The position numbers were made by a program, and so were the translations under genes. Below are positions 9,892-62,289 of a stretch of 64,000 nucleotides of DNA, in pieces. Each line of letters opens with the position of its first letter. The stretch's first letter is position 1. The stretch comes from Eutreptiella sp. 'Long Island Sound 2002' (lineage: Eukaryota > Euglenozoa > Euglenophyceae > Eutreptiales > Eutreptiaceae): the NCBI GenBank assembly GCA_964036045.1, contig OZ038381.1, forward strand, positions 102,739,367 through 102,803,366. The letters run 5' to 3'. Under the pieces are notes generated by a model, which made no database searches, was not told the DNA's origin, and was given only the letters and a program-made list of their open reading frames with translations.

Positions 9892-9920
9892 TAATAAATC
9901 AGAACAAGCGAAGAAATTAC

Positions 9921-23217: not shown

Positions 23218-23954
23218 GCTAAGACGCATTCTACTGGTAATCACCGATGGTCTCCTTACGATCACAAGGTGATTGGTGAAAATATCAGTAATCCGCAGAA
23301 TTCAGACAGGAACGACAGACAGGTGCATGGTGGGAAGGCTGGAAAAGGGAATCCGACCCCCTCCGTGGAAAGAAAAATACTGGAGGCCCTGGCGGGTCCC
23401 AAGGCACAAGAAATCGGACTCCATCCAGCTCCGGTGGGCAGCCGAACGGCCAGAAAAACCCCAATAGCAACGCCGGAGGCGGAAATCGAAATCCAGGCCA
23501 AACCCCTCAATCCGGTACAAACAAGGGAAATGCTCCAGGATTCCAGGGTAAAGGTAAGAGAAATCCTTCGGGAACCCCCTTCTCTGGTAAGGGCAGAGGG
23601 CGTGGCGACGATGGAGGTCCATCATCCGGCGGCCGTGGCCGTGGACGTGGAAAGGGCAACCATCGTGTGGATCAGGTCTCAGGTGCAGATCAGGTGTCCG
23701 ATGCGGATCGAGATTATGTCGAAAATGCCTTGAATCCAGCAGATGATCCGTTCCAAGATGAGTGGGTCGACGAATCAGGGTGTGTTCACAATGTTAACGC
23801 AGCCACTGGAGGTCAGAACGCCTAGGGGAGCCACGAAAATCGCCCCTCCCCAGGCGATTTCAGGCATGATCCCCAGATTCCATCTCGACCACTACTTGAT
23901 GTAGGGTCGCTTGTCTCCTCTCCCCTGGATCCGGCAGCGGATCCTTCTGTCGTA
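23218..23954 (+). pseudogene. Gag-pol junction of the inner element
   Basis: After the gag TGA, the gag register stays open until 23,733. From about 23.34 kb the more natural reading is in the pol register: Gly/Asn/Arg-rich sequence (GGPSSGGRGRGRGKG), then acidic sequence, broken by one TAG near 23.83 kb. A one-base indel near 23.34 kb plus two stops therefore separate gag from pol. The basic RGG-like stretch would bind RNA as part of the nucleocapsid. Confidence 0.6.
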
Positions 23955-26900: not shown

Positions 26901-29009
26901 GCTCTGAGCCGATGGGCTTACCCCGCTTCAGAGGGGCTGCAAAATACCAACATCCATGGTACGGAGCAGGACCGCCATGTCATAATCGAATGGGATCAGG
27001 AAGAAAAAAAGCTCATTCGACGTGCATGCATGCAATGCGCTGTTAAACAGCACGCATTACCGTGTCACGACATCACAGCCTTTTCAGATCCGGCGCATGC
27101 TCATGAGATCTGCACCAAAACACTGAAAGTCGTGGAGAAAGTCACCGATCCCTCCTCAGGGAGTGTGAAACGGTTTGACTATACCCGACGAGTAAGTCGA
27201 TTTCGGTTGATCCAGGGCCTTAAGCGTCGAGATCCGGCCAAAACTCCACCCCTGCCGAAAGATTCCCTTATCATCCGTGACTGGACGTCCGATTATCTGC
27301 AGGATCCCATGTTTAAAGAGGTCTTTGGAAATCTCAAATCCAAAGATGCTCACAAGGATGGGATTTTTTCTGAGTATTCGTTGGATGGGGGGAAGCTGTG
27401 GATGGAGGGTAAATTGTGCGTACCAGACGCCCTGGCCCCCCGAGTGTTAAACTGGTGGCATAAATGGGAGTCCCCCCACGCACATGGCTGTCGATTATGG
27501 TCGATGATTAAACATAGGTTGTTTGGCTCACGGCTATATACTCATTGCATGAAAGTAGCCGCCGGATGTGCCCAATGTGCTGTCTCCACGCCCCCCAGCG
27601 CGAAGAAGCACGTCCATCTGAGGCCACATTCTATTCCGGAGCGCCTCTTTAACAGAGTCACCAGTGATTTTTTCTATCTCGGTGAACTCGATGACGAAGA
27701 GTGCCATTGGACCAATAAAAAGGTCAATGGTGTGCTCCTTATTCAGTGCCGTCATTCCAGCTATATTCAGGTGTTGCCTTGTAACATCGAGTCGATGACT
27801 GGCAAGGCTGCCGCCAAATGGTGCGCGCAGACCTGGATGGGAGGTTGGGACGTCCCATCCGAGGTGGTTACGGACTCAGGCAAAGAGTACACCTCCGAAT
27901 GGTGGAGAGAATTATGTGCTCGCCTTGGAATCCACCACCTGAGATGTGAAATTCACTCGCATCGAGCGCTGCCTGGCGAAAGAACCGGCCGCTCTATTAT
28001 AAATATGCTTCGTAAGGAGCTCGCGAGTGAAAAGGATTTCCATTGGCTTGAAGTTCTCTTCGCATTGCTTCGCCGTTACCACAACACGCCTTTGTACCAT
28101 GGCCTTTCTCCAAATGAAATTGTCTTTGGACGAGAGAAGTGTTGGTGGAACATGCCGTTGAATAATCCTCGCCCTTGTAAAGATGCTTCGTTGTTTTTGG
28201 ACGACGTCCAACGAGCAGATAAAACTGTCTCGAAATTAATTGATAAGCATCAAGCTGACTGGCTTTGGGTCCAGAATCAAGGCCGAAAAAACCCCCACAA
28301 TTTTGAAGTCGATGATCGAGTTTGGCTTCGAAAATCCGAAACCACCCTGGACGGAGATGACAAGCTTCTTCCCTTGTGGGAGGGGCCATTCGCTGTTACA
28401 GCGCGTCTAGGTGAGAACAGGTGGAGGATTCGTGTGGATGTCAGCAGGGAAATTGACGTTTCGGGCGATCGCCTCAAGAGAGAGATCCCCTCCCCCAAGG
28501 ATCGGGTTAAACCCCTTTTTTGGACTTCGAAAATTTTGTCAGATCGGGTCATCGAAGGGGGGAAGTACGAACTCAAGAGGATTGTAGAGGCAAGACGTGA
28601 CGCGAAGGGCGAATGGGAATTTCTATGTGAGTGGAGGGGCTTTGATTCCAGTCACAACAACTGGGAACCAGCCCATTCTTTTGTCCATGGGTACACCAAG
28701 GGGTTCATCCACTTCCTCAAGAAGCACCCCGAAATTGGTGTACTCCTGACAGACTGTCTGTCGAAACCAGACAGACAGGTGGAGAGCGACGGAAAAAGAC
28801 CTGTGGTGAATCGAGATCCAGCCTTTTACGGCCCTCAGCAGCCACATTCCAGGGCTGATCCGTCGATCCCCCCTCCTGCGGTCAGGCCAGCCCAGGAACC
28901 AAATGAGGACCAAGCTTCGAGTTCGGCCGCTGATTTGCAGCGCCGTAGCCGTACGAGGGCCCGACCAGACAGATTGGTGGTCACATGTATTCGTGCTTGG
29001 CCGAATTGA
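23955..29009 (+). CDS. Pol of the inner element: PR, Dam-like MTase, RT, RNase H, INT, chromodomain
   Basis: The longest intact frame in the window (1,684 codons; the first codon shown is GTG, so the true start lies upstream or comes from a gag-pol fusion). The protease region has CDNGSEVNLQ (Asp 36, with Asn replacing Thr/Ser) and YLGHPWL. Residues ~225-310 form a Dam-like domain: YDAFANRENKRF (Asp 233), WINPPFHLI (NPPF 262-265), ILVVPLW, WFQEL, IDLP. RT has VLDLRHGFHQMPL and YIDDIII (Asp 702-703). RNase H has RTDASRYAIG. Integrase has an HHCC-like finger and catalytic Asp 1238, Asp 1307 and Glu 1342, a D,D-35-E spacing. The chromodomain is at ~1538-1590 (YELKRIVEARR … CEWRGF … NNWEP). It probably yields all enzymes of the element. 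Confidence 0.93.
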   Translation: MDEVGVQSKHRARQFVTKLWVSDCKGNFHLATCLCDNGSEVNLQSNSFLPDDCVIDSLYPVTLEGVSGHSLAGGQRGCYISTHLVAQDLWEEGNVEEVVLKGDWFYRADIKYDLYLGHPWLSKNRVAPVGHRRCFLLESGPLERPEFRFLHAGFKSAEEFLKRKVTPKFGEDVTIAEVNGSADYSRELECLRRDSQPRRPSRWHSSSYRVVDKWRDAICEYFYEHHSFWPQYDAFANRENKRFDKHFRDAWTHKWDKKLWINPPFHLIQQVIHKIKQDKTQAILVVPLWDDKPWFQELQDICVDYIDLPRKIKLYARDDTGPLPQRSWSSLAFLVDGKLSDSNSADSGTDSCVGSESEVERGTDDESIFSDFCPSDTQGDPTSNGSASSPSSPIRSTSKRIFSARAKENFKSRRKFRVLYEKPRVEAFIDPFEELDREDNLWNVDTRTTYLQEAVDTDLFRDIRKNILPAKAEEVAKVFSTVIPGDQVDTELCSKAREKIFEERKDTTLSGKLLKDPPVRGQFGEAFIELREGYKAKKQRPYENHGHKHEILRKKIERNLREFGWLEGCMTSEWCCAPFTVPKPPPADQNTIDCLRMVVDFRNLNAETKADSHPLPLIEEEIAKRARGRLFSVLDLRHGFHQMPLRKDSRPLTCMCTPCGPVQWTVMPMGLKNAPSFSQRMMGDVLFTAHPELRAFVSVYIDDIIIATEGEGLTEAELVALHEKQLNQVLDILDANQLICGPKKGKLFLKSVEFCGSLLENGTRRPSPGKLVAIQKWKRPETITELRGFLGCCNFYHTFVPNYAKFAAPLTELLKVGRDAGKAGSKVLVKWTDECEEAFHHLKAALCEVATLHVPQFDRPFYIRTDASRYAIGAVLEQVDEATGDHYLLAFWSRKLAPRQMQWSPREQETYAIICALKKYQSWVGTNRVEVLTDHRSLEYWATEHIDTVASPAGRRARWHEFLSLFDLHVSYLPGKHNTVADALSRWAYPASEGLQNTNIHGTEQDRHVIIEWDQEEKKLIRRACMQCAVKQHALPCHDITAFSDPAHAHEICTKTLKVVEKVTDPSSGSVKRFDYTRRVSRFRLIQGLKRRDPAKTPPLPKDSLIIRDWTSDYLQDPMFKEVFGNLKSKDAHKDGIFSEYSLDGGKLWMEGKLCVPDALAPRVLNWWHKWESPHAHGCRLWSMIKHRLFGSRLYTHCMKVAAGCAQCAVSTPPSAKKHVHLRPHSIPERLFNRVTSDFFYLGELDDEECHWTNKKVNGVLLIQCRHSSYIQVLPCNIESMTGKAAAKWCAQTWMGGWDVPSEVVTDSGKEYTSEWWRELCARLGIHHLRCEIHSHRALPGERTGRSIINMLRKELASEKDFHWLEVLFALLRRYHNTPLYHGLSPNEIVFGREKCWWNMPLNNPRPCKDASLFLDDVQRADKTVSKLIDKHQADWLWVQNQGRKNPHNFEVDDRVWLRKSETTLDGDDKLLPLWEGPFAVTARLGENRWRIRVDVSREIDVSGDRLKREIPSPKDRVKPLFWTSKILSDRVIEGGKYELKRIVEARRDAKGEWEFLCEWRGFDSSHNNWEPAHSFVHGYTKGFIHFLKKHPEIGVLLTDCLSKPDRQVESDGKRPVVNRDPAFYGPQQPHSRADPSIPPPAVRPAQEPNEDQASSSAADLQRRSRTRARPDRLVVTCIRAWPN

Positions 29010-30673
29010 GTGTTCTGACAACTTGAAAAACCCACATTCTGCTCAATCCACTGTGCATTCTTCCTGATTATGTCATGATGTGGAGAACTGCAAATGTTTG
29101 ATAATTTGACGTCAATCAACTTTTCTTTGGTCTCCGTTCGGCAGACAAGGCGTAGATACGCTGCCGAGAGCCACGGAGTGTGCTGCCGTGTTCAGAAAAA
29201 ACCAAACTCAGGCTTAATTCAGGCAGATTCGGGGTAATCTTGTCTCTGTTGGTCTGTGCATTTTTGGAATTTGGCTACTCCTGCAGATGGAAGCAAATGT
29301 ACATAGTAAAAACACCGGCCGGTGACATTCACCCCTACAGGCCCCCCCTGTAGTACTGGCTGTACCAGTTGCGACGCCAGGAACTCAGATCTTACCGTCA
29401 TTTGCCGTGATGCTGAAGCCAAAGTCCAGATTCAGATCCAGATTCCTTGAATTTACCTTGAATTCCTCAGGTTTGTCCATCATTCTGCCACTGTTGCACG
29501 AAACCCAGACGTCAATTGTTCAGACAACCTTCAGATAGGAGCTCTAGGGACTTCTAACAGCAACCTCTGGAGTCCGTAAGCTTCGTTGTATTTTTGGCAC
29601 ACGCCAATGTGAGCTCAATCCGACCTGAAACTGTCGAAAATGGTGAATCCAAGTGTCTTCAGGGACTCAATCGAAAGATGGGCCTTGTCCAAGTCGATTG
29701 ACACCGCCGCCACTGTAAATAAAGAACTATTCGGTGTCTCTCAGTTATATACTGTCAGTAAAGCGCCTCCAGCGAGCCTTCGGCGCGTTACATGCCAAGG
29801 ATCCAGGGCCAGCATGTCCCATCATGATGCATCATCACATGATCCACATTTTCATAGAATCTGTTAGATGCTCGCGAACCAACGTGCCGGAAAGCACAAT
29901 TGAGCTGAATAAACGACAATATATATTAACTCTAGTCTAAACGAAAGTGTTGGTAGTTTTAGTTCTAAATATTCCGCTTCATTTCACCTTCATCTTAGGG
30001 AATTTGCACATTTTAGGACAATTTAGGTTGATTTACTTGTCATCTCCTCTCATTCCTCGAAGATCTGTCGACGGCTTTGCCTAACTTCGTTGACGCTTAC
30101 GATTTTCTGTGCACTTAGGGTCTGTAGACTACATTTGTATTTGTTTTCCCTCTCTGTGATTGTTTAATCTCCTTCATCTCTGCTCAATTTGATTCCCAAT
30201 CTTGCTGAATCTTGTGATCATCCACCAGATGCGCCAAATCTGAAGCACATGCTGCACTTTTCAGAACGAGAAAAGCGGGAGTAACACGATGTAGAGTTCG
30301 GCGAGGACACCGTAGCGTGCCCGCGACAGCGAAACTGTGCCAGAGCGCTGAGATGTCACTCAATTTCTTGATTCCCCCACTCAATCCACCATTATTCTAC
30401 CTCATTCTCAACCAGTGCATGGTTTGGTATCGATTTTCGATACGTTTACATGCTTCTTAGCCCTTAACCTAATGTCGTACTGCACGGAGGACTGTTCGTC
30501 ACTCCTCATTCTGTCTCATTTCAGGTTCATCCAGCCTGATTCAGTGCCAATTCAGCCCAAATCAGGTCAGATCAAGCAGATTTCGCCCCATCGAGGCTAC
30601 ATTTCTATTTTCTTCTGGGACTTACCCGCACTACGTTCTTCGTTGACGTAGCGACACACCCCAGTGTGTTTTT
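29010..30673 (+). other. Long 3' untranslated region of the inner element
   Basis: About 1.66 kb without a convincing frame lie between the pol stop and the purine tract. The region is AT-richer than pol and has several short tracts of T and C. I see no second gene, no antisense gene and no tandem repeat. Confidence 0.6.
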
Positions 30674-30683
30674 GGAGGGGGAG
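30674..30683 (+). promoter_or_regulatory. Polypurine tract of the inner element
   Basis: GGAGGGGGAG ends exactly at the first base of the 3' LTR and is preceded by a T run. It is the expected primer for plus-strand cDNA synthesis. Confidence 0.85.
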
Positions 30684-31216
30684 TGTAAGTGCGGCTAACC
30701 CCCATCTGCTCAGATTTTCACTGATCTAACCCAGATTGGCTACATTTTGGTCATTTTCTTTCCTTCGGCGGAATCGCCGCCTCGCAGCTCAGTCTCAGGA
30801 TCAGACCTATATATTTCTGATATGCCGGATCTGATTCCGCGGTCCATTCTCCGTAAATCCGCCGCGTTCCGATCATTTGCCGGGAATCGCCATTTGCCGC
30901 TGACGCGCGCTCGCGGGCCAGATCGGCCAAATATTTTTCACAATCGGATTTATTTAAATCTTTTCAGACAGTTTTGGACACTCAGATGTATTTAGAATAA
31001 TCCGCATCAATTTTCTTCATAGACTGGGATTTTCTGCCGGATAACAATCATCATGGACCTTGCTTCAGTTGTTGCTGCTCTCGCCTCCGTTGGTGTCCGT
31101 GTCTCCGGTTCTACCCCCAACAGCAGCGTTCAGGTCGACTCCTCGCGTGCCTGCCCCACTGGTCTTGCCGGCCCCGAGCCCTCCGGCACCATCAACGACC
31201 CAGGGCAGCACTTTCA
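30684..31216 (+). repeat. 3' LTR of the inner element
   Basis: 533 bp, equal in length to the 5' LTR. Differences by eye cluster around 30.87-30.99 kb. It is followed by the second CGTAC copy (31,217-31,221). Confidence 0.96.
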
Positions 31217-31221
31217 CGTAC

Positions 31222-32856
31222 AGACCTGGCCAAGTTCCGGGGCGCCCGAGTCCAGGCTATTCGAGAGGAAACACTCGATCAATGGATGGTGGCCCCTGTA
31301 GAGCTAGTCAGGTCGGTGCTCACACCGGACTGGTCGGATGACTATGCGGCATCCGAGCACTGGAGTAGGTACTGGAACGCCGTGAGCGCCCCGTCGGATG
31401 ACGAATGGCCCGAGGGCTTGACCGAGGATGGCGACAAGTTGTTCCTCAAGGACAAGCTGCTGGTGCCCGAGAACCGAGTGGAGGAGCTCATTGACCATTG
31501 GCACAACGCCCAGCTCATGCATCCTGCCCGAGACAAGATGCAGCAGGACCTGGAGTGGCGTTTCAAGTTCCCTCCGGGGTATTACGCCATTCTGGATAGG
31601 TACTGCAGCGACTGTGCCGTGTGTCGGGCCACGAAGAGCCCTAACCACTCCACAGCGGGCAACCCACTGTATACGGCTATACCGGAAGCCCCTATGCGGT
31701 CCGTGGCCATGGATGTATTCGTCATGCCTGAGGTCACCGTGGAAGGTGAGACCTACGACTGTGTCATCCTGGCGGTGGATAGGCACAGTGGGTATATCGT
31801 GGCGGTCCCTGGCAAGAAGTCCAAGAAGAAGGACAAGAAGGACAAGCATGGAGTGGGGCTGCAGGCCAGACCGTCGCTAATGTAATGATCAGGCATTGGC
31901 TGACGATTTTCGATGTCCCGGCTGTCATCTGCAGCGATCGGGGCAGTCAATTCGTGGGGACGTGGTTCAAGACGATGTGCAAGCACATGGGTATTCGGCA
32001 CGCCAAGACCGTGGCGTACCACAGCCGGTCGAATGGCCGAGCTGAGGTGGCCGGGCGGCAGATGTTCGAGAAGTTCCGCCAGCTCCACATCGACGAACTG
32101 GGCCGGAACTGGTACAATTCGCTGTGGAGAGTGCTCCAAGCGTACCATGACCTTCCGGGACCCACTGGACTGTCGCCCCATCGCATCCTGTTCCTACGGG
32201 ATCGAGTGTCACGCACTCTCCCGTGGTTGAACCATGGCAAAGTGGCCCGGGATGCGAATGCTATGATGGCTGAGGCGGACGACACGGCGGCCAAAGTGTG
32301 CAAGGCACTTCAGGACGAGCATGACAAGAGGGCCAAGTACTTCAAGCAAGGAAAAGTCCAGAAGTATGCTCTCCAAGACACCGTGTGGGTGGAGCGGCAC
32401 CACAAGGATGTCCTGTCCAGGCATCGACAGGCATCTTGGTATGTGCCGGGGGTGATCGTGCGGAAGGTCGGACAGGATGTGTATGCGGTTCGTGTGGGGG
32501 ATAACAAGATCCTGGACCGCGACCATACCCAGCTTCGTCCCCGAGCACCAGACCCCAGCGGACGTCCAGTCACCTTCGAGTTCACGGCCGGCGATGTGGA
32601 CTCGGACGATGAGGGTGAGGACGACGACTTCACCGCTGAGAAGATCCTGGCGGACAAGCCGGACCCGGGGACGCCTGGGGGTAGTCTTTACAAAGTCCGT
32701 TGGAAAGGATTCGCCGCATCCAGGGACTCGTGGGAGCCTCCGAGCAGTTTTGTGCCGAGGTACACCACGGTCTGGATGGACTACCTAAAGAAAAAGAGTA
32801 TTTCTTTGGATGTCAAGGACGTGTTGGTCCATTTGGTTGCTGCTGTAGCACCGTAA
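31222..32856 (+). pseudogene. Pol of the outer element, C-terminal part (integrase, chromodomain)
   Basis: Joined to 20,421 after excision, the frame continues through the integrase zinc finger (DHWHNAQLMH … CSDCAVC), the first catalytic Asp in VAMDVFVMP, a one-base frameshift near 31.87 kb, the second Asp in VICSDRGSQF and Glu in NGRAEVAGR. A chromodomain ends the protein (LYKVRWKGFAASRDSWEPPSSF). Integrase inserts cDNA and the chromodomain may target chromatin. Apart from the shift, the integrase residues are all kept. Confidence 0.88.
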
Positions 32857-33250
32857 TGGTTTCCCCATTGGCATTTTGTTTGTTTCTGTGCTTGGGGAGA
32901 CGGGTGAGGGCGTTCATCCGGGGATTTTTCGGCCTTGATTGGCCATATACCCCCTTCACTCGATCTCCACGTATATATTTCACTGTGGTATACTTATTTA
33001 GGTCGACCGACGACGTTTTTCTATCTTTGATCCACTTGGTCCATGTTGTAGATCAAGAGGAGACCGGATATGGCGTAGGGCACCGATTATCAGTGTCCTC
33101 ACCCCTCCCTTAGGGCATGGGGGACGCCTACGACGTGTGTGGGGCCTCCATGTGTCCTTGGGACATGGAGGGGGGGGTTGGAGCTCGTTGGGGTCCTCCC
33201 GTCCTCTCTTCGTTGGTTTCCGAGCGGATACAACGCTCTGAGAAGGGCGG
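32857..33250 (+). other. 3' untranslated region and purine tract of the outer element
   Basis: Noncoding stretch between the pol stop and the 3' LTR. It contains several G-rich runs. The final GAGAAGGGCGG (33,240-33,250) abuts the LTR and is the likely polypurine tract. Confidence 0.6.
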
Positions 33251-35589
33251 TGAAGCCGGTTCGGACCCCCGTGGCCATCTTGGGGTCACTTGGGGTGTGT
33301 ATCTATGTGCCGGCAAGCCGCCATTGGCTGATATCATACTCTCCCATCCACCTGATCTAACCCGATGTGATAGTATGATAGGTTTGGCCATTCCGGCTAT
33401 GAGCGGCCATATTCAGAACCGAGGCGCCGCCAGCGGAGATTTATATATCGGAATATCAGGAATCAACAGGGTTTTATTATCATAATGTTTCCGTAATTTT
33501 TCAGATTTTCGTTCTGATGGTCAATGTATCGGCGACTGTCAGTTGGCTCGCGATTTTACGTTAACCGATTGGTTAACTGTTATTTCCAGATATTTTGGCG
33601 GATATTCCGTTGAAGGGTCAGATTTCATCAGCGAATGGTTGGTTGCTTCCGCAATTCTCTAAATAAGCACTCGAAATTTTAATCTGAATTTTTCGCGATG
33701 TCGAAATCGGATTTTCGACTTCGACATCGCCGCACTTGATTTGGACTTCTTCGAGTGGTCATACTCCTTTCCCTATGCCAGAATCAGGTTTCCCTTATAC
33801 TTGCCACCCATTTGACTTGGAGATATAAGGGAAACAAAAGTGAATCGTGGGACCACTTTGAAGGACCATATCTACGCGCGAGTGTGAGGAAAGAGAATAA
33901 GGAAGGTTGGGTTGCAAGCGCCTTGGTCTCAACCCAATTTGAGAAGCATCAAACGCCTTTGGTGCGCACACATGCCCGCTGTTGCAAGGGATAATGGTCA
34001 AGAGAATATAAAGTGATATATAACTCTTGGACCGTGCAACCGAACATTTTATTGTGACTTTCGAGTGTACCGCATGAGTGTTGGGGTTGCATAGCAACTT
34101 TCCTTGGGTTCCTACGTATTTTTAACGTGAAGTTATGTCAATGGAGGGACATGGCATATCATGGTGGGAGCCATATTTTGAGGGTATGTGTTGTATGCAT
34201 GGTATATGTTTGATATGCTCACGTCCATGTTATATATCTTCGTGTGGCCGAGGAGATGGGGAGCCATACGTGACAAGGGCCTTGCCCATGTCCCAATTGT
34301 GGAATTCAAAGCGCTAGACCAAGTCTACCGCGTATGTATTGCTCATGGTATGTTTGACAAAGAGATCCATGGGTGCACTCCCATTTTCATGGGGCATGTA
34401 GATATTAGTGGCGAAGGTATCTCCATGCGCCTGATTGGGGATCCAAGTGGGGGAATTGTTCGCTAATTGTTCGAATCATGAGCGGATATCATGGGTGAGC
34501 ATAGAGATATACTATCATGACAACTTTGCATTTGGTCATATTTTCATGTTTTTGACCTCAATTTTTGCTCATTTTTGCGTTTTGTGTACTTACCTGGTCG
34601 GCAAACAGCAAGAAGCCTATGGAGAGTCGAACCATGGTATGTTGTTCATATGTTGGCATATGCTTTGGAGTTGAACACCACCATATGCCGGATCACGTAC
34701 TCCATTTGGCTTGGCGCACGAAGGATCACAAGAATTGGTCTCAAGATCATGGGCTGACTTGGGCAGTGCGTGGCGCCCACATCCGAAGGGGTTTCGAGGG
34801 TAAAGTGGGATGTACATGGGCATTGGCCTTTGGTCTCTATCCTCCATGAATACTAGACTTCGATTCCATGCATGCTTTGAGCCTTCGGATAAGTAGTAAC
34901 TTCAATTTTGAGCATATTGTTGATATATGGCCAATATGGTGTGAATTGGCAGTTTTTTGACATGTTATGAGTTCAAACTCATATGTCATTTCTCTAAGCC
35001 CATTCGACTCCAAGTCCAACCAAGGTTATGTCAGGGTAGGGGATGGTCTTGAGTGACACTCTAGGCCATGACACGCCACCTCCCACATTGGGCTAGGATT
35101 TAGAGGCTTGGGAGTGAACACATTTTTGGGGTTTATGTAATGACTTTTGACATGTGGCATTTAACCATCTTATTGGACTGGGTTCAGGGCAATATGTGGG
35201 TGAGTCAAGGGAAGGTCTTGAGTCCAGGGAATGAGGGGTCTATGGCTGTGATTGTATAAGTTTCCATCTTTCCCCAACTTTGTTTTATTTGTGTTCATAT
35301 GCCAATTTCAGGGCTTTCTTCCTTGGTGCAATTCTTGTACATGCCCGCCATCGTGAGACAATTGATGTGCTGAACGAAAGCCCGCAGCCTGATTTGGATT
35401 GTGAATTGGGTTATTGCTGTACTTGTGGGATCTGGTTGCCATTCAGGGTTGAAGGAGGATTTTATTTTCTATATTTTTGGATTTGGACCCTGGAAATTGA
35501 GGAATGCAATCGTTGATCCGGAGTAAATCAGCAGGGGTTACAGGCGGAAGGGGCACAGCGGGGGCCGGTCCTGGTAGGGACCTTCTTTA
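33251..35589 (+). repeat. 3' LTR of the outer element
   Basis: 2,339 bp, 16 bases shorter than the 5' LTR because of one deletion next to the second GATCATGAGC-like segment near 34.48 kb. Many more substitutions separate this pair than the inner LTRs, in keeping with greater age. GTGG follows at 35,590-35,593. Confidence 0.93.
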
Positions 35590-35854: not shown

Positions 35855-35925
35855 CTGAAAATGACAAGGTCATGCGCGAGGCCTCACGCAATGAGCACAG
35901 TTGAAGCAACGTTGAATGAACATAC
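35855..35925 (-). other. Intron (71 nt) with central palindrome
   Basis: GTATGT donor at 35,925 and TTTTCAG acceptor at 35,855. Splicing joins …KQPGQF to DKTYKLW in phase 0, giving a continuous frame where the unspliced one hits stops. The palindrome (35,873-35,890, one mismatch) lies 35 bases after the donor and 18 before the acceptor. The duplicate at 43,443-43,513 is also 71 nt. Confidence 0.85.
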
Positions 35926-36287
35926 GAATTGACCCGGTTGCTTCAGTTCAGCGGTTGGAACAAGGGCACTCATCTGAACAGCATCCACAATGGCGGACTT
36001 GAGATTGTTGTATGTGTCAGGTAAGTTCCGCCGCCGCTGATCTTCAACACAACGAAGGCGGCTATCTGCCGCCTCATACAGTGGTATCGGCTCGACGTGT
36101 TGTGCGTTTCCTCGAGCTTGTCCCGCCAGTTTCGCACGGAAAGCCCACAGTGTATCAGGCTTCAGAATATCAGCCGTGCATGTGGTATGCCACTTGTACA
36201 AATGCAGACATGCTGCCCATCGCTTGTCCCTAATCTTCAAAACTGCTTCAACGCTGTGCTGTCCTGATACACACCAATGATTGCCAT
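35926..36287 (-). pseudogene. DNA-transposon exon of 362 nt
   Basis: Bounded by two palindrome-bearing introns, the exon is open throughout: GNHWCVSGQHSVEAVLKIRD, then Cys/His/Trp-containing sequence (RWAACLHLYKWHTTC), then a helical stretch ending KQPGQF. The Cys/His spacing does not fit a standard zinc finger with certainty. The same exon is repeated at 43,514-43,875 with few amino-acid changes. Function unknown. Confidence 0.65.
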
Positions 36288-36360
36288 CTGCGAATAGAAG
36301 ACAGGTTCATGCGCGAGGGCTCGCGCAACGAAAACAACGAACTGTCGATTGGAAACATAC
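36288..36360 (-). other. Intron (73 nt) with central palindrome
   Basis: GTATGT donor at 36,360 and ATTCGCAG acceptor at 36,288. The palindrome at 36,310-36,327 has one central mismatch. The downstream exon needs phase 1. The upstream frame of that phase contains a TGA four codons before the donor in both copies, so either the gene was already dead before duplication or another donor is used. Confidence 0.7.
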
Positions 36361-36548
36361 TGTTGTCTACTCAGAGAACGACATATATCGGGCATGTTCG
36401 TGGTGCTGCTTCAAGTGACTGATCACGCTTTTGCAGTAACTTTGCATCTTTCCGTCTGATCTGTCCTTATGTCCTCTCCTCATCAATTCTCACCTTGTTC
36501 AGCTCAATCTCCACTTGCTTCGCATCTCATCCCATCTGGTCATCTCAT
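36361..36548 (-). pseudogene. DNA-transposon exon fragment upstream of the 73-nt intron
   Basis: Partial copy of the exon better preserved at 43,949-44,308. It is cut by LINE 1. It carries the same in-frame TAA and TGA as the other copy, plus small differences. Confidence 0.45.
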
Positions 36549-36673
36549 CCCAAATGGTACACCGCAAACACCTCCTGTTAACACACGCGGAGCAACTCAC
36601 CGACCCCACCGCCAGGGAACACATGCGGCGTCTCATCCATTACCATGCCGTGCATGACCCAGACGTCCGCTAA
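36549..36673 (+). pseudogene. LINE 1 ORF2 remnant (C-terminus only)
   Basis: MVHRKHLLLTHAEQLTDPTA to DPDVR and TAA. It is nearly identical to the end of LINE 2 ORF2 (DPDVH). No catalytic domain remains. Confidence 0.85.
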
Positions 36674-39600
36674 CCTACTCCGCGCCCCGCACGCGCCCCC
36701 CATCTCCATCTGCAGGCCCCAAAGACACCACCACAGCGCCCTGAAGCCCATCACTCACCCAAGAAGCCACCCGGCACCGCCCAGCCCAGCCGAGCCCGAC
36801 CACGGCCAACCATACGTCGACGTAGACGCGCAAGACCCCGGCAACCCATCCAGCCGGCCCCCCCGGACCCGGGGCACCCCCCCCTCACACCGGCCACCAT
36901 CCGCGACCCCGACCTCCTCCGAGCAACCCTCCAAGGCAGGGCCCCGACCAGCCCCCTGGGCTGGTACCACCTACAAGAGGACTGGACCAAGCTCACCGTC
37001 AAAGCCCTCCGGGACCTGACCACCCCAGGCAACGGCCTCCAGGAGGCCATCGTAGACCTCGTACTCTGGTGAGCTCGCAAACACATGCAGGGCCAGCACG
37101 TCTGGATTCTCCCCATCGAGTGGGGCCAGGCCCTGACACACGACACCGACATCAACGTCACACGTCGAGGGACCGTACGCCTACGACGGGCCCCAGCGGA
37201 GAAGGACCACCCAGCGGACCCGAACCGCCCGGAGCAGTGGGAAGAGGCCGGCGCACCAACCCGCGACACCGCCCTCCGCGCCGCCGGCCTCTGCACCCCA
37301 GACAACGACCTTGCCCCCCCACCTAGAGACAGTGACCACCCCCCTTCGGAGGTCTGGGTTACAGTCCTCGAGCGCGGGCAATACTACGTAATAGCCGCTA
37401 CGGCTACGTCCCCTGGCCCGCAATGGCTCGTAAAAGGGACAGACACCATGCTCGCCCCAGAAGCCGCCCCACAAGGGGCAATAGGGGACCCCACCACCCA
37501 GGACAGGGTCCTCCGGGGCGTCCACCAGCCAGGGGACAAGCCCCCAGCCCGCGCCCTGGCCCACATCACCTTAAGGAAGGCGGGCTACCACCTGGGACTG
37601 GCCATGCTCTGCCTGACCCACTGGATCCAGCGCCGCTGGCCACCCACGGGGACCGTGCCCTGGATTTGGGCCATCCCCACCGCCCACTCACAAGTCGAGG
37701 CGGGCACGGACACGCGGCCAAACCCCCCCCCCCCCAGGACCGCAGCAATCCCTCACCTGCGGGTACCACGCCATCCACAGGGTCCTCAGCCGCGTGGGTC
37801 TTAGCCCAAAGCTAGCATACCCCCTTCCCACCACTGACCAAGAGGTCCACCAGATACGCAAGCTCGTCTGCGAAATCCTTGCCACGGCAGCAGAAAACGG
37901 CAAGCTTCTCCTCCAAACCGCCCGGCCTACAACTTACCACGCAAGCGCGCCGCGGCGAGCGGACACATACATCGACACAACACAGCCCACCGCACAATCC
38001 CCGCCCATGCCCCTCCCCTCTCGCTGCTCAGCCGGAGACCCACACACGCCCACCATCGCGCGCACCCCCGGGCCCCGCCACACGGGCCTCCCCCACCCGC
38101 CCCAACACGAGCACACGCCCGCCACACACCCACCCGCCGAACACCCCTCAACAACCCCCATACTCGACAACCTGGACACACCTGCCCAGAGGAGCCCTGT
38201 GCCCCGCGGCACGCCCACCCCACCCAGTCGCCCGCACACGCCCCCCCGCACACACGCCAGAAGACCAAGGCCCACCCCCTGCCCGGCCCCTGAATGCAGC
38301 CCACGCGAACTGTTCCCCCCCGCGGACGCCAACCCACACGACCTCACACATTACAGGACCCCGGCCCAGCCAAGCCCGGAAGGAGAAGACCACAGCCCCG
38401 CGCCTCCCCCCCCCGCCGCTGCCGACCAGATCGGCCCGCCAGGCCGCCAGGTCACGACTTGGCCCTCCAAGCCGCCCGCCCCCAACCTACAGCCCGAGGA
38501 GGTGCCCTCCATCCTCCCTGCCGTGGCCGCAGCAGAAGCCGCCGCCCACAAGCCCGCCCGCATCACAGCCCAACCTGCGTCCACCACTTCCTCCTCATCC
38601 TCATCCTCATCCACCTCTACCATCTCATCCACCGACCCCCCCCTCCCCACCACCCTCATCCTCAAAGCTACGGCAAAAGCCAAAGCCGCGGCCGCACGAA
38701 CCGACCCCCCAACGCCCACACAGCCCACTCAGGCACCCCGGCAACGCACCGGGAAGACCCCCGACCCGACATCGGTGCCCTCACACCTCCGGACAGAGGT
38801 CCTCCTCAACCTCGAACCGGACCCCAACCCGAAACCCGACCCAAAACCCAAGCCGGCGCCCACGCGAGCACACACCACACCACAAACGCAACGACACAAA
38901 CCCAACCGACACCGCCCTAACCCAAGCCCTAACCCAAGCCAGGACCCCCCACCCACCACAACCCACGCCCCCCTCCCACTGGTAGCCACCACCACCGCAG
39001 AGGCGGCCACCCCACACGACCCTGTCCAAACCCTCGTCAACATCCCCGTCACCAAGCGCCCCGTCATCCATCCCCCAAAAACAACCACCACCGCCAGCCA
39101 AACCGACCCAGGGACGTGGGACCCCTCGACCACCGTCACGTCAAGCCCGGCCCCCGACCCACCCCCCCTGCCCACCACATAGTACACCCCCAGGGGCTGC
39201 GCATGATGCCCGACCCCCCACCCCCACAAAGGGGACCAGAATACCCACAAGGGGTCCAAAGGCCATACCCGCAACACCAACCCCACGACTACCAACGCCA
39301 CCACCACCAGCGGCCCCACCACAACCACCACCAACACCACCCCCACCACTACCACTGCCCACCACCCTACCCCACCGGGCCACAACCCCCTGTGCACGAA
39401 CAGCACCAGCGAATGGGACGGCAGCCACCGAGCGCTCCACCCGCATACCCCACCTACCACCAGGGGCCGGCCCCCCTGTACCAGCAACCCCCCCCGTACC
39501 AGGAACCGTATCCCCCCGGCCACCACGTCCACGCCGAAGGGGCCCCCTGGGCCCAACCCCGCCAGGGACAGTCACTCGACCCATACCAGGAGCCGCTGCC

Positions 39601-40766
39601 GCCACCACACCCCTACGTGGTGGATCCATGGACGACTAGGGACCTCCCCCCCCCCCCAGTACCAGGCGGCACCACGCGAGGCCCCCCATGACCCGCCGAC
39701 GCCTCCTGAGTGGCCCGTCTCGAGCGATGAGTCCCGGTTCGCAAACGGCAGCGCTCCTGCTCCCCCCCCTGCACGGCACACTCGCCCCCGTCGCCCACAC
39801 TCCCCACACCGCCACCGCGCCTCAACCACCCACTCGCGCCGCTCCTGCTCCCACAGGTGCCACCACGACCCCTTGAGACCCCACTCCCGCCCCTCTCATT
39901 CCCCCGGGCGCCACCACGAGCGCCACGGCCGCCCCATGTCCACCTCCCCCTCCCCCCTCCGGGCCGTACACAACCCCCACCCCCAGCCCCCGCCACCACG
40001 GCTCCCGCTCCCCCCGGCGCCGCCAGGCACGCCGACGCCGCCCCACGTCCACCTCCCCCTCTCCCCACAGGCCCCGCCAGGCTCCCTGTTCCCCCCGCCG
40101 CCCATACCCATCCACCACCCCCAGCCCCCGCCACCACCACTCCCGCTCCCCCAGGCGCCACCAAGCGCGCCACCGTCGCCCCAAGTCCACCTTCCCCTCC
40201 CGTTCCCCCATCCGCCCGTACCCGTCCTCCACCCGCAGCCCCCGCCACCGCCGCTCCCGCTCCCCCAGGCACCGCCATCCCCACCACCACCACAGGTCCA
40301 CGTCCTCCCCCCGCCGCTCCAATACCCCGGGCACGGAACCCCCCCCCCCCCCCCCCCGGGCCCCCGCCCAACTCGCCTGGTGGTCTGCCCCGCTTTACAG
40401 GAGCTCCGCTGCTGGGTGAAGTGGGCCGGGGGAGCGCAAAGGCGAGAAGGGGTGAGCATGATGGACACCTTCGAGGAGATGCGTACCCGCACCCCCGCCG
40501 ACCCCAACGAGGCCGCCCCGGAGGCCATCATGCCGCAAGCGGCATGGGAGGCCCTCCTCCGCGATGCGGTCCAGGGCCTCCGCCCCCCCTACACCCCCCA
40601 AGCCCTCCGCCATTGGCTCCAGGCCACCCACCCCCAGGCCTGGGCCATCGGCGCCCCCTCCCCACCCCGCCACCACCACACCGGGAAGGGGAAGGACAAG
40701 GGCAAGCAGAGGGCAAGGGATAGCAAGGGGCACTCAGGCAAGAGGGCACGGAGGGGCCCTAAGTGA
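36674..40766 (+). pseudogene. LINE 1 ORF3: Ulp1-like region, Pro-rich linker, basic C-terminus
   Basis: The N-terminal region reads QEAIVDLVLW … GQHVWILPIEWG … YYVIAATATSPGPQWLVKGTD … SLTCGYHAIHRVLSR. It resembles the core of C48/Ulp1-type cysteine peptidases (catalytic Cys codon 37,758-37,760). The position matching the catalytic His is CAA, Gln (37,379-37,381), while LINE 2 keeps CAC. A C-run near 37.73 kb shifts the frame. A very Pro/His/Gln-rich linker with Ser/Arg-Pro repeats follows, then a conserved end from LRCWVKWAGGAQRREG to a Lys/Arg tail (GKGKDKGKQRARDSKG). The peptidase assignment is inference from motifs. Confidence 0.55.
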
Positions 40767-43301
40767 AGGCAGGAACCCATAGGGACAGGGCGCCGGAAGA
40801 GACACAACATGGGGGCAGGTAACCACCCAAGAACCAGGAAGGGGCAGGAGCGGGGACCGAGGCACGGAGGAAAAGGGCACCACGGCAAACGCCACGACCC
40901 ACACCCAGGAAGGGCATACCACGACGGGGGGACCAGCGCCGCCCCACCCCCACTGAACGCCGCAAGACTCCCGGGGGCGCAGCCCCCAACACGCACCGCC
41001 GAAGCAAGCATCGGACGCCGTACGGAACACACCAGCGCACACCTACCAGCCACCGGAAATGACACGGGGGATGGAGGGCACACCTACACGGGGAGAACGG
41101 GCCACCCCCACAGAGGAAGCCGCAGGGAACGCCGCCGCGCGGCGCACCACCATGCCCTCACCGCCAGGCGACGACCCCGGCCGCCACAAGGGCCACCTCA
41201 CAGGCACCGGAAGAGGACAAAGGCACAGCCACAGCGACCAGGGCTAGGGAGCGGGACCCCCAGAGGACACGGGACAAAGGCACAGGCCCCCAGGGAGGGC
41301 AACCCCACGGACGCCTACCTGACCCACCAGCCCGAGCGGCACGCCAAGGCCCCCACAGCACGGACCCAGCGAGACACCCACACCTAACCGCACCCCCCAG
41401 CAACCAGCCAGGCGCACTCCGGCCTGCACTCCACACCACGACACAGGCCAGGCTGACCTCCACTGACCCACCACGGCACAACGCAAGACCACGGCACACC
41501 GCACCATAGCGCGCCACAGTGCAACGCGCCACAGCACGACGCGACGTGACGCGGCACAGAGCGGCACAACACGGCACGACTGACCCCAACCTGAAGGACT
41601 AACTGAAACAAGCCACCGCACACCCCGGAAGGCGTCGCACCAGCACGCCACACACCGGCACCGCAGGCCACACACGGGGCCACCGCGCGCCCGGCAACAA
41701 CGGTGGCGGACCACCCCGAAGGTTAAAACCGGCACCGCAAAGGAGAAAGGACACGAACAACCCCAGCCCCCTAACCCAGAGCCACACGCAGCCACCTGGC
41801 GCAGGGGCCCAGCCGGCAGAGCCAGGACCTAACCCGACAGGAAGGGGCGCCGAGCCCAACGTGTACATAGCCCTCCCGACCCATGGGGCCGGAACACGGC
41901 CAAGAAGAACGCAACCTCCAACAGCAGCCTGAAAGGCAGAGGGAGGAACAGACAGGCCCCCCCCCCAAAAGCAAAAAACAGGGGGGGGAGGGGGGTTGGG
42001 CACGAGGACAGCCCACAGCCACCAAACCGCCCGCCAACACCACAAGAGGCGGCGAAACCCCCCACCCAGAAGGCACCGAAGACAGGACCCTGAGAGAGGC
42101 ACAGGGGGACCACCCAGCCAAAACCGGCAACACCAAGCCAGGAACAGCGGGCAACCAGGAAGAGGGACACCGAAACATGCAGACACACACGACGGAAAAA
42201 AGGAAAAAAAAGAAAAAAGAGCCAGCAGTCCAGCCCGAAAGAAAGGGGATGGGGGGACAGGGACCACAACGCACGGGACAGGGACAGCCAGCAACCAACA
42301 CCACAAAGCCAAACCATTACACGCAAAAAAAAAACCGCAAAAAACACACCACGACAACCCAGCCAAGAAGGGCGGGGCACAGCCGAGACCCGGTCCGAGC
42401 ACGCACGCCCACACACCGCACCCCAGCCAGGAAAGGCGGGGAACAAGCGGGGCGCGCGCACAAACACGCACCCCCGCACAGCAACCCTAACCAGGAGGTG
42501 CAGGAGACCATTCGGGACGGGCGCACACCCCAACACCCCCCCAAGGAGAGGCGGAGCGCATCCGAAACCCAAACCCCAACACGCAAGCCGACACCGCACA
42601 CCAGAACCGGAAACCGCGGGGGGCAAGCGGAACGCACAGGCAACCACACACGTCCCATAAGCAGGCCGAAACCTAAGCGCAACCACGAAGACCAGAAACA
42701 GCCGGCAAAAGAGGGACAACACCACAAACCGTGCCCGAACACACCTACCCAAGACCCAAGCCAGGACTGGCGGGGTTAACAGGACCCACACCCAACCGCA
42801 ACCCGGACCCAAACACAAACGCCGCACAACAGTACGAAACCCAGTGCCCACAGCCCGGGCACTGAGGCAGCCCGTGCCATGCAGGTGACCCGGCCAAACG
42901 AGATCCGGAGACCAGGGGTAAGGCTGCATCCTAAGGCCTGCGCTGCTTGCGGACTTGAGGCGGAGCGTGCGACATCCAAGCGCCTCGGAACCCTAGTACC
43001 AAGAACGTGCATGCATGCCTTGGGAACGGGATACGCCAGGAAGTCCGGTGAACTTCTAGGGTTCCGCCCAAAGGAGGGGACGTGCGCAAGCACGGGGGCA
43101 CACCCTCCCAGCGAGACCAGCAACCCCACGCTGGCGGCAATCAGCCCTCCTGGTGTTGCCCGGGGCCGCTTTGATGGGGGCGAACAGTCAGATCTAGCGG
43201 GATGTAAGCCGCCTCCCCTCTTCACGCGCGGAGCCTCTTCCTGTTCGTCACAGGGGCGACGCCAGGGGGGAACCATGGGGCGCCTCTCCATGACCGAGTG
43301 C
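40767..43301 (+). other. LINE 1 3' untranslated region
   Basis: About 2.5 kb of strongly A/C-rich sequence. Open frames here differ in register from those at the same place in LINE 2 after a short shared start, so I read it as noncoding. The large open frames on the opposite strand follow from scarcity of T on the sense strand. It contains a 3'-terminal block (about 42.86-43.3 kb) well conserved with LINE 2. Confidence 0.6.
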
Positions 43302-43320
43302 ACCTACCTACCTACCTACC
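43302..43320 (+). repeat. LINE 1 3' tail (CTAC)n
   Basis: Repeated CTAC ends the LINE. The transposon sequence resumes at 43,321. LINE 2 ends with the same kind of tail at 44,309-44,333, so it is part of the element and not a chance microsatellite. Confidence 0.85.
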
Positions 43321-43442
43321 TTTAGTGCCTTCTTCGAGACCTTTTCCCCTTTATCATGGAACTTTTGCAAACCTTTCACAGCATCCGGAGCAGCATAATA
43401 GGCAAACGTCATGAAATCTTTCCACGATTTATACGTTTTGTC

Positions 43443-43513
43443 CTGAAAATGACAAGGTCATGACCGAGGCCTCACGCAATGAGCACAGTTGAAGCAACGT
43501 TAAATGAACATAC
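43443..43513 (-). other. Intron (71 nt) with palindrome, duplicate copy
   Basis: Duplicate of the intron at 35,855-35,925 with the same GTATGT donor, same acceptor and same length. The palindrome has decayed to TGACCGAGGCCTCACGCA. Confidence 0.8.
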
Positions 43514-43875: not shown

Positions 43876-43948
43876 CTGCGAATAGAAGACAGGTCCATGC
43901 GCGAGGGCTCGCGCAACGAAAATGACGAACTGTCGATTGGAAACATAC
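43876..43948 (-). other. Intron (73 nt) with palindrome, duplicate copy
   Basis: Duplicate of 36,288-36,360: GTATGT donor, ATTCGCAG acceptor and palindrome at 43,898-43,915. Length and spacing are unchanged. Confidence 0.7.
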
Positions 43949-44308
43949 TGTTGTCTACTCAGAGAACGACATATATCGGGCATGTTCGTGGTGCTGCTTC
44001 AAGTGACTGAATACGCTTTTGCAGTAACTTTGCATCTTTCCGTCTCATCTGTCGTTATGTCCTCTCCTGGTCAATTCTCACGTTGTTCAGCTCAATCTGC
44101 ACTTGCTTCTCATCTGGCTTCAGGTGGTCCTCGGTGTCTGTACCAATTGTCAGGCCAGGATCTGGTGTTTCCTTCTTCTTCCGTCCCTTCTTTGGCGTTC
44201 CAGTCCCCGATTCCAATCCTTCAGGGTCATAGTCGGTATCCACCAGTTCCTCACCTGTCTTTGTGGCGGGGCTTGCCATTCTGCGATAAGAAGAAAGCCT
44301 GTTTCGCA
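43949..44308 (-). pseudogene. DNA-transposon exon, Lys-rich, split by LINE 2
   Basis: From the LINE 2 junction the frame reads RLSSYRRMASPATKTGEELV, then a Lys cluster (PKKGRKKKETPD), then a coiled-coil-like stretch (EKQVQIELNNVRIDQERT), an in-frame TAA, RQMRRKDAKLLQKRIQSLEA, and a TGA near the donor. Across LINE 2 it is in register with the open frame ending at 59,662 (…YPILIPRFLRN). The stretch looks like a basic, helical nuclear-protein segment; function unknown. Confidence 0.6.
44297..44308. repeat. LINE 2 target duplication, left copy
   Basis: GCCTGTTTCGCA here and at 59,662-59,673 flank LINE 2 exactly. Confidence 0.92.
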
Positions 44309-44333
44309 GTTAGGTAGGGTAGGTAGGTAGGTG
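44309..44333 (-). repeat. LINE 2 3' tail (CTAC)n
   Basis: The minus strand ends CACCTACCTACCTACCCTACC…; this matches the tail of LINE 1. Confidence 0.85.
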
Positions 44334-46689
44334 CACTCGGTCGTGGGGAGGCGCCCCTGGGTTCCCCCTGGCGTCGCCCCTGTGACGAACAGGAAGAGGC
44401 TCCGCGCGTGAAGAGGGGAGGCGGCTTACATCTCGCTAGACCTGACTGTTGGCCCCCAACAAAGCGGCCCCGGGCAACACCGGGAGGGCTGATCGCCGCT
44501 GGCGTGATGTGCTTGTCTCGCCGGGAGGGTGTGCCCCCGTGCTTGCGCACGCCCCCTCCTTCGGGCGGAAACCTAGAGGTTCACTGGACTTCCTGGCGTA
44601 TCCCGTTCCAAAGGCATGCATGCTTGTTCTGGGTACTAGGGTTCCGAGGCGCTTGGGTGTCGCACGCTCCGCCTCGAGTCCCAAAGCAGCGAAGGCCTTA
44701 GGTTGCAGCCTTACCCCCGGTCTCCGGATCTCGTTTGGCCGGGTCACCTGCATGGCACGGGCTGCCTCAGTGCCCGGGCTGTGGGCACTGGGTTTCCTAC
44801 TGTTGTGTGGCGTTTGTGTTTGGGTCCGGGTTGCGGTTGGGTGAGGGTTTTGTTAACCCCGCCAGTCCTGGTTGGGGTCTTGGGTGGGTGTGTTTGGGCA
44901 CGGTTTGTGGTGTTGTCCCTCTTTTGCCGGCTGTTTGTGGTGTTTGTGGTCGGGCTTAGGTTTTGGCCTGCTTATGGGACGTGTGTGGTTTCGTGCGCGT
45001 TCCACTTGCCCCCCGCGGTTTCCGGTTCTGGTGTGCGGTGTGGGCGTGCGTGCTGGGCCCGGGTCCCAGCTCTGCCCCGCCCTTCTTGGCTGGGTAGTCG
45101 GGGTTTGTTTTTTGCGCTTTTTTTGTTTTTTTTGGTGTCCGTTTCTGGGTGTCCCTGTCCCGGGCCTTGTGGTCTGTCCCCCCATCTCCTTTATTTCGGC
45201 TGGGCTGCTGGCTTTTTTCTTTTTCGTCGTTTGTGTTTGCATGTTTGGGTGTCCCTTTTCCCGGTGGGCCGCTGTTCCTGGCTTGGTGTTGCCGGTTTTG
45301 GCTGGGTGGTCCCCCTGTGCCCCTCTAAGGGTCCTGTCTTCGGTGCCTTCCTGATGGGGGGTTTGGCCGCCTCTTGTGGTGTTGGCGGGCGGTTTGGTGG
45401 CTGTTGGCTGTTTTCGCGCCCCCCTCTCCCCCCCCTCTGTTTTTTTTAGGGGGGGGGGCTGCCTGTTCTTCCCTCTGCCTTCCCTGGGCTGGCGCACGCA
45501 CTGGCCCGCATTCAGTGTGGTCTTACGGGCTGCTGTTGGCGGTTGCGTTTTGTTTGGCCGTGTTCCGGCCCCATGGGTCTGGTGGGCTATGTACACGTTG
45601 GGCTCGGCGCCCCTTCCTGGCGGGTTAGGTCCTGGCTCTGCCGGCTGGGCGGCTGCGCCAGGCGGCTGCGTGTGGCTCTGGGTTAGGAGGTTGGGGTTGT
45701 TCGTGTCCTTTCTCCTTTGCGGTGCCCGTTTTAACCTTCTGGATGGTCCGCCACCGTTGTTGCCGGGCTCGCGGTGGCCCTGTGTGTGGCCTGCGGTGCA
45801 GGTTTTTTGGCGTGCTGGTGAGGCGCCTTCCGGGGTGTGCCGTGACTTGCTTCGGTTATTCCTTCAGGTTAGGGTCAGTCGTGCCGTGTTGTGCCGCTCT
45901 CTGCCGCGTTGCGTCGCGTCGTGCTGTGGCGCGTTGCACTGTGGCGCGCTGTGGTGCAGTGTGCGGTGGTGTCGCGTTGTGCTGTGGTGGGTCAGTGGAG
46001 GTCAGCCTGGCCTGTGTCGTGGTGCGGAGTGCGGGCCGGAGTGTGGCTGGCTGGTGGCCGCGGGGTGCGGTTAGGTGTGGGTGTCTCGCTGGGTCCGTGC
46101 TGTGGGGGCCTGGGCGTGCCGCTCGGGCTGGTGGGTCGGGTAGGCGTCCATGGGGTTGCCCTCCCTGGGGGCCTGTGCCTTGGTCCCGTGTCCTCTGGGG
46201 GTCCCGGTCCCTAGTCCTGGTCGCTGTCGCCGTGCCTTCGTCCTCTTCTGGTGCCTGTGAGGTGGCTCTTGTGGCGGCCGGGGTCGTCGCCTGGCGGTGA
46301 GGGCGTGGTGGTGCGCCGTGCGGCGGCGTTCTCTGCGGCTTCCTCTGTGGGCGTGCCCGTTCTCCCCGTGTAGGTGTGCCCTCCATTCCCCGTGTGGTTT
46401 CCGGTGGCTGGTGGCCGTGCGCTGGTGTGATCCGTACGGCGTCCGATGCTTGCTTCGGCAGTGCGTGTTGGGGGGTGCGCCCCCAGGAGTCGTGCGGCGA
46501 TCGGTGGGGTGGGGTGGCGCTGGTTCCCCCGTCGTGGTATGCCCTTCCTGGGTGTGGGTCGTGGCGTTTGCCGTGGTGCCCTTTTCCTCCGTGCCTTGGT
46601 CCCCGCTCCTGCCCCTTCCTGGTTCCTGGGTGGTTTCCTGCCCCCATGTGGTGTCTCTTCTGGCGCCCTGTCCCTATGGGTTCCTGCCT
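44334..46689 (-). other. LINE 2 3' untranslated region
   Basis: Counterpart of 40,767-43,301 in LINE 1, inverted. Sense-strand A/C richness is marked. Its antisense open frames (for example 44,703-45,449 plus) share a start with those of LINE 1 but are hydrophobic shadow frames of low T content. I see no gene. Confidence 0.6.
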
Positions 46690-59831: not shown

Positions 59832-59849
59832 TGCGCGAGGCCTCGCGCA
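59832..59849. repeat. Palindrome copy, perfect 18 bp
   Basis: TGCGCGAGGCCTCGCGCA. A GTTGAT donor candidate at 59,878 (minus strand) is 29 bases upstream and a CAG at 59,787 could be the acceptor, giving a 92-nt intron. This assignment is weaker than for the GTATGT introns. Confidence 0.8.
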
Positions 59850-62271: not shown

Positions 62272-62289
62272 TGAGCGAGGCCTCGCGCA
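62272..62289. repeat. Palindrome copy, one mismatch
   Basis: TGAGCGAGGCCTCGCGCA. It is 40 bases from the previous copy. No separate CAG acceptor lies between the two. Confidence 0.75.

Follow-up and report, generated by a model that had tools for sequence, protein, structure and literature searches.

A nested transposon and its palindromes

The window, by which we mean the whole 64-kb stretch of DNA that was analysed, contains a DNA transposon with terminal inverted repeats (TIRs) that extends from 9,419 to 62,714 and is split by other insertions. The element is bounded by a perfect 28-bp inverted repeat, which becomes 29 bp when one further base is included, and it is flanked on both sides by the direct repeat GCTTTA (Table 1). 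Inverted ends together with a target duplication of fixed length are the hallmarks of a TIR DNA transposon, and both are found here: among the 15 elements compared, a 5-bp duplication is exact in 10 and inexact in four, with the window copy showing 6 bp. An 8-bp target duplication was also considered for the window copy and was dropped because other copies show 5 bp. Between the ends lie LTR retrotransposons, in which a reverse transcriptase and a chromodomain are present, and two further insertions, which were labelled as LINEs by an earlier interpretation made from the letters of the window (the sequence-only reading). One of these (~36,540-43,321) is flanked by a direct duplication of about 0.8 kb of transposon sequence (35,733-36,510 and 43,322-44,100), which reaches 97% in the 300-nt piece reported and is far longer than usual LINE target duplications; its second copy starts directly after a CCTA-repeat tail.

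An 18-letter palindrome, TGCGCGAGGCCTCGCGCA, matches the window at ten positions with up to 3 mismatches, against a mean of 0.02 expected from 100 dinucleotide shuffles. Three of these copies are exact (9,766; 59,832; 62,500) and the remaining seven have 1-3 mismatches each. The sequence-only reading had listed these ten along with an eleventh, at 9,874, which is recovered only when 4 mismatches to TGCGCGAGGCCTCGCGCA are allowed. It had also placed every copy in DNA-transposon segments and none in the insertions labelled LINE or LTR, and this is borne out; a single TIR element contains all of them. The gene fragments around the palindromes are on the minus strand. The pairs 35,873/43,461 and 36,310/43,898 represent the same two sites copied by the ~0.8-kb duplication, which leaves nine distinct sites in the window. 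The second of the insertions labelled LINE contains another perfect palindrome, of 24 bp and with a different sequence (GTTGTTGCCAGGCCTGGCAACAAC, 58,730-58,753). Searches with the region 35,700-36,500 recovered no match in plasmids and none in Rfam, a phage hit (L001) is a chance match within a phage gene, and no relative of P0018 was found among viral contigs.

Table 1. Features of the transposon in the 64-kb window, in order of position; L030 is a complete copy elsewhere in the genome
Feature	Position	Strand	Remarks
Flanking direct repeat GCTTTA	9413..9418	+	6 bp in window copy, 5 bp in most other copies
3' terminal inverted repeat	9419..9447	+	29 bp, CTTAGGCGG...
Palindrome E	9766..9783	.	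~347 bp inside 3' end
Palindrome D	9874..9891	.	shortly 3' of gene-1 stop codon; 4 mismatches in window
Gene 1, last exon	9917..10730	-	up to stop codon; frame damaged in window
Intron C	about 10731..10797	-	palindrome 10,752-10,769
LTR retrotransposon insertions in gene 1	11605..35560	.	approximate limits
Intron B, other copy	35855..35925	-	palindrome 35,873-35,890
Intron A, other copy	36288..36360	-	palindrome 36,310-36,327, sense centre AGCCCT
Insertion flanked by ~0.8-kb duplication of gene 1	36540..43321	.	approximate limits; LINE by label of the sequence-only reading alone
Intron B, one of two copies	43443..43513	-	palindrome 43,461-43,478, 3 mismatches
Intron A, one of two copies	43876..43948	-	palindrome 43,898-43,915
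Gene 1, exon 1	43949..44290	-	approximate start
Insertion between gene 2 and gene 1	44330..59650	.	approximate limits; LINE by label of the sequence-only reading alone
Palindrome F	59832..59849	.	in L030 directly 3' of gene-2 stop codon
Gene 2	59871..61930	-	candidate transposase; approximate limits; damaged in window
Palindrome G	62214..62231	.	5' region of element
Palindrome H	62272..62289	.	5' region of element
Palindrome I	62500..62517	.	~197 bp inside 5' end; exact; part of 24-bp palindrome
5' terminal inverted repeat	62686..62714	-	29 bp
Flanking direct repeat GCTTTA, opposite side	62715..62720	+	

Complete copies, two families and small elements

Across the host genome (2,280,300,865 bases) there are 17,048 palindrome sites with at most 1 mismatch, in a search that finds each palindrome on both strands, and the reversed control gave 0. 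The 28-bp core of the inverted end of family 1 (see below) occurs, at up to 3 mismatches, 1,828 times on one strand and 1,744 times on the other, 3,572 in total. We sampled 16 stretches covering exact sites listed from contig C1 between 1.84 and 10.98 Mb, each locus being chosen for holding at least one exact palindrome. All 76 sites in this sample (up to 1 mismatch) are inside elements: 65 are covered by blastn alignments with a reference element that are 100 bp long or more, and the other 11, in L007, L008 and L015, sit between paired inverted ends. A genome-wide check for the palindrome in host genes and introns had been suggested by the sequence-only reading; none of these 76 sites in the 16 sampled loci is outside a transposable element or in a host gene.

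The complete copies fall into two families. Family 1 has inverted ends of 29 bp, and nine of its copies with perfect ends were examined, seven of which carry both genes; six of the seven have ten sites at up to 3 mismatches, and L023 has eight. Family 2 comprises L006, L009, L012 and L020, is 6.85 kb long and has inverted ends of 23 bp or longer, CTTAGCCCACGCAAACTGCACCC, unlike those of family 1. Each of its three complete copies has ten sites, and with the two families pooled ten sites are present in 9 of 10 complete elements bearing both genes, the exception being L023. L027 and L028 are 6.6-kb elements with family-1 ends that lack homology to the genes and have four sites each; they lie 5 kb apart and share the 5-bp duplication GTATG, and hence probably go back to a single insertion that was copied together with the neighbouring DNA.

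The sites start at 197, 425, 483, 2875, 2930, 3474, 3911, 5047, 5924 and 6032 in L030 (family 1, 6,397 bp), and at 198, 423, 609, 3103, 3159, 4138, 4511, 5293, 6338 and 6497 in L020 (family 2, 6,856 bp). The distances of the first two sites from the left end (197 and 425 versus 198 and 423) and of the last site from the right end (344-347 bp in 6 family-1 copies versus 341-345 bp in 3 family-2 copies) agree between the families. Those of the other sites differ, with site D being 441-454 bp from the end in family 1 and 500-504 bp in family 2; the left end of L023 also deviates, with sites at 191, 571 and 629. These fixed end distances could in part reflect common descent, as over the stretch from 30 to 190 bp the ungapped identity between the two families is 0.41, compared with 0.27-0.38 when the offset is shifted. 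The palindrome is exact at 7 of 10 sites in L030 and 8 of 10 in L020, the others having 1-2 changes; in family 1, site H starts with A in most copies and sites A and D have altered centres. All ten L020 sites carry an extended core, G...CT, an extension absent from L030, which is an apparent shift in specificity shared by every site.

Outside the palindromes the two families have little in common at the DNA level. With the palindromes masked, blastn (E<=0.01) leaves just two short stretches that match, and these are coding. At 9 of 10 sites per family the core is more strongly conserved than the flanking bases, a comparison based on 6-7 of 7 copies in family 1 and on three in family 2, which say little, and in which sites were located via the core itself, so that lost sites drop out.

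Some small elements lack the genes. L008, 1,212 bp long, has an exact 5-bp duplication (AAGGA) and no match to gene 1 or gene 2; with its palindromes masked, it matches family 2 only in the 28-29-bp ends. Its sites have family-2 flanks. One is 200 bp from the left end, and two are at 502 and 346 bp measured from the right end, the family-2 counterparts being 198-199, 500-504 and 341-345 bp; L008, one element, is the strongest single item of evidence. L007 and L015, both of 1,709 bp, are family-1-like only in the outer 39-75 bp. Of their four sites, one is about 206 bp inside one end, and three are 376, 482 and 669 bp inside the opposite end; these elements are perhaps a third family. In L021, two perfect inverted repeats of 1,102 bp (4604-5705 and 6857-7958) adjoin a truncated family-2 element, and a 182-bp piece of these repeats occurs one extra time.

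Gene structure and the location of the sites

When four introns, A, B, J and C, are removed from L030, gene 1 becomes one open frame of 834 codons with a single, terminal stop, and removal of the same four introns from L020 gives 881 codons; the two products are 33.8% identical over 733 aa. Gene 2 of L020 is a single open frame without introns (672 residues translated, counted from seven before the first Met), that of L030 has two internal stops and was counted as coding through them, and gene-2 pieces of the two families share 31-48% identity. At E<=0.001 the relatives of the two proteins number 253, 156 and 226 in three comparisons, with 120 listed for each. Among the relatives are the internally deleted P0260, P0296 and P0325, in which gene 2 is joined either with gene 1 or with sites D and E. 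As internally deleted relatives join the genes, both are carried by one element, which the complete copies confirm.

Neither gene has a convincing Pfam match or a recognised DNA-binding domain, and no transposase domain was detected among 40 gene-1 and 47 gene-2 proteins and models; likewise, Pfam and PDB searches with the proteins of the element yielded no convincing match to a DDE/D transposase. The Pfam matches are weak and scattered: one of the 47 gene-2 proteins matches 2TM_P5A-ATPase (0.00039), the terminal part of gene 1 has a match to DDHD (0.0025) that is below its cut-off, and the AlphaFold model of gene 2 is poor and unusable (pLDDT 49.7). ParB marks DNA via parS sites, and by eye the start of gene 1 looks ParB-like; searches of Pfam at E<=10 and of PDB found nothing.

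Introns A, B and C of the window are supported by this gene structure, including the intron at 35,855-35,925, which the sequence-only reading had predicted to keep the frame in phase 0. The donor of intron C is GC in the window copy and GT in L030. The positions of A, B, J and C are common to both families, whether the palindrome is present or absent: it occurs in introns A, B and C of family 1, not in J, and in introns B, J and C of family 2, not in A. Introns with the palindrome are 67-73 nt long (97 nt in family-2 C), and those without it are 69 nt (family-2 A) and 74 nt (family-1 J). A pattern search recovered family-1 introns A, B, J and C in 5, 4, 4 and 3 of 8 copies, and family-2 introns A, B, J and C in 1, 1, 4 and 3 of 4 copies, all of them small counts; none of the four family-1 J introns so found has the palindrome. 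The earlier view that each intron is built around the palindrome therefore has to be abandoned, given family-1 J and family-2 A.

In the two modelled copies, L030 and L020, all ten sites are non-coding and three per copy are intronic. The gene models assign 4,491 of 6,397 bp to coding DNA in L030 and 4,644 of 6,856 bp in L020, and the chance of ten out of ten non-coding sites under random placement is 5.5e-6 and 1.2e-5, respectively. Site F, which immediately follows gene 2 in L030, is 13 nt after the stop in L020; its partner F', 55 bp past F in L030, is missing from the window copy. Site D is 25 nt (L030) and 44 nt (L020) past the gene-1 stop, and the candidacy of D as an intron was dropped for this reason. 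The palindromes at 59,832, 9,874 and 9,766 are all located beyond the stops of the modelled genes. The introns proposed at 62,480-62,549 and near 62,214 are not confirmed. Both would fall in the element's first 530 bp, and the corresponding part of L030 is free of sense ORFs of at least 60 codons between 570 and 1,281.

Candidate roles of the palindrome

The element with its inverted ends, mostly 5-bp duplications and ten sites, its two families and the gene-less elements that keep the end sites is apparent from sequence comparison. We consider it probable that the palindrome is a cis site acting at the DNA level, present about ten times per element in non-coding DNA and bound symmetrically by a protein that is itself probably encoded by the element (gene 1 or gene 2). 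Sites near the ends, located ~200 and ~424 bp inside one end and ~345 and 450-500 bp inside the opposite end, would function in end recognition during transposition, and the inner sites, in introns and between the genes, may be bound by the same protein in regulation or anti-silencing. Introns would hold sites because they are non-coding and not because splicing needs the sites. That the binding protein would be the element's own is suggested by the shift of the flanks in family 2 together with known systems (VANC, Ac and the P element). Among the ideas in the sequence-only reading, that of transposase sites hidden in introns comes closest: the palindromes do appear to be cis sites of the transposon, but they occupy every kind of non-coding block.

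The same positional and conservation evidence would also be expected if the palindrome were bound by a host protein, for instance a factor in transcription or silencing, recruited or tolerated by the element, and the four CpG steps per site would suit a methylation-sensitive factor. We regard this as unlikely, as all ten L020 sites are extended, which is what co-evolution of site and protein inside a family would produce, and as no site is outside elements in the sample. Ten near-identical copies per element, and flanking bases common to the family-2 sites, are likewise compatible with a functionless short repeat that spread through the non-coding DNA of an ancestral element and was kept alike by gene conversion. 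This is quite unlikely in view of the three end distances that are equal in both families and recur in L008, an element with almost no other similarity to them, and of the near-identity of the cores where the flanks have lost similarity.

An RNA hairpin that aids splicing, e.g. by bringing branch point and acceptor together, would account for the mid-intron position of the palindrome, 25-38 nt from the donor, and three of four stretches do fold more stably than shuffled sequence (z -2.1 to -2.5), two of the four not being exact introns; intron B itself, however, folds no better than shuffles (z 0.35). A hairpin in sense RNA should favour C>T changes, which leave a G-U pair, over G>A changes, which disrupt it. 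Across 20 loci, each of 139 sites was assigned to the closest of four consensus forms, those with more than 3 changes being dropped, and the sense-strand changes were G>A 20, C>T 18, C>G 15, G>T 7, G>C 5, C>A 3 and T>C 1. C>T and G>A are thus about equal, and changes that preserve a G-U pair are not favoured; outside the four central bases 38 changes break a pair, 13 leave G-U and 2 are still paired. These DNA-level counts were used in place of a sense-strand asymmetry from protein read-through, which was too weak. In intron-B read-through proteins (n=94 of 120) the codons of the palindrome are kept at 92%, versus 84% and 73% for the adjoining intron codons and 96% for those of the exon, where the anchor inflates the figure. 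Since, moreover, introns J of family 1 and A of family 2 are equal in size without a palindrome, and seven of ten sites lie outside introns of the gene models, the earlier suggestion of a hairpin joining the splice sites is very unlikely. Introners, each derived from one inserted unit with palindrome and splice sites, were the other proposal, and several introns are indeed alike in palindrome, size and rough spacing. Beyond the palindrome the best of ten pairs of window introns, A-B, is a little closer than most shuffles (equalled by 20 of 500), but the other nine pairs are equalled by 30-304 of 500 shuffles. Known introners spread over many genes, and in Amoebophrya their inverted repeats link both intron ends (PMC9860276, PMC7789003); the present introns resemble them in having repeated sequence, with inverted repeats in Amoebophrya, and differ in that the palindrome is mid-intron, belongs to one kind of transposon and is mostly extra-intronic. 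Similar introns in many unrelated genes, as expected of introners, were not found, the sample having no host-gene site. With palindrome-less introns at shared positions and no preference for G-U, this proposal fails along with the hairpin, and we give it practically no credence.

Binding of the palindrome by a protein of the element would have parallels in known transposons. Ac is a hAT element, a group to which the present element, unlike Ac, is not assigned. The relationship of L008 to family 2 resembles that of Ds1 to Ac, which have only inverted ends and a few transposase motifs in common, but the Ac/Ds subterminal motif AAACGG is 6 bp long and confined to the terminal 200 bp, unlike the palindrome (PMC3260210). 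The Drosophila P element is similar in having 31-bp ends (29 bp here), internal inverted repeats, transposase sites close to its termini, an intron-bearing gene and internally deleted derivatives; it differs in its 8-bp target duplication (5 bp here) and in the absence of a protein match, and the excerpted P-element description has no such palindrome array (PMC7776569). The target duplication is 8 bp in P, usual hAT and Zisupton elements and 5 bp in hAT5. Neither the 8-bp duplication nor the recognisable transposase domain that would mark a P element, hAT or KDZ member is found here, the duplication being 5 bp. A further parallel is VANDAL21 of Arabidopsis, whose anti-silencing protein VANC21 is encoded by the element and binds a family-enriched short motif in non-coding DNA (PMC5735166). 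As in VANDAL21, the motif belongs to one kind of transposon, lies in non-coding DNA including introns and upstream regions, and shows family-specific changes, the two modelled copies both having a family-specific motif in non-coding DNA, introns included. In contrast, the VANDAL21 motif is 9 bp, non-palindromic and arranged in dense same-direction arrays, whereas the present one is an 18-bp palindrome that occurs singly at some ten positions, and the VANC protein and its binding are demonstrated where their counterparts here are predicted (PMC5735166).

A more speculative proposal, which we hold to be somewhat unlikely, is a novel transposon group in which the gene-1 protein grips ten symmetric sites distributed along the full element, also in its introns, and so would mark the whole of it, in the manner of ParB on parS or of VANC on its motifs, for anti-silencing or for a transposition complex. 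No description of the element was found in the open-licence literature, in searches that did not use the palindrome letters as a query. Transposon binding sites near the ends and one anti-silencing system with intronic motifs are already known. About ten palindromes kept while the proteins have diverged down to a third identity and other non-coding similarity has been lost would constitute an unusually clean record of protein-DNA co-evolution, and the element offers the lesson that a repeated intronic motif need not concern splicing.
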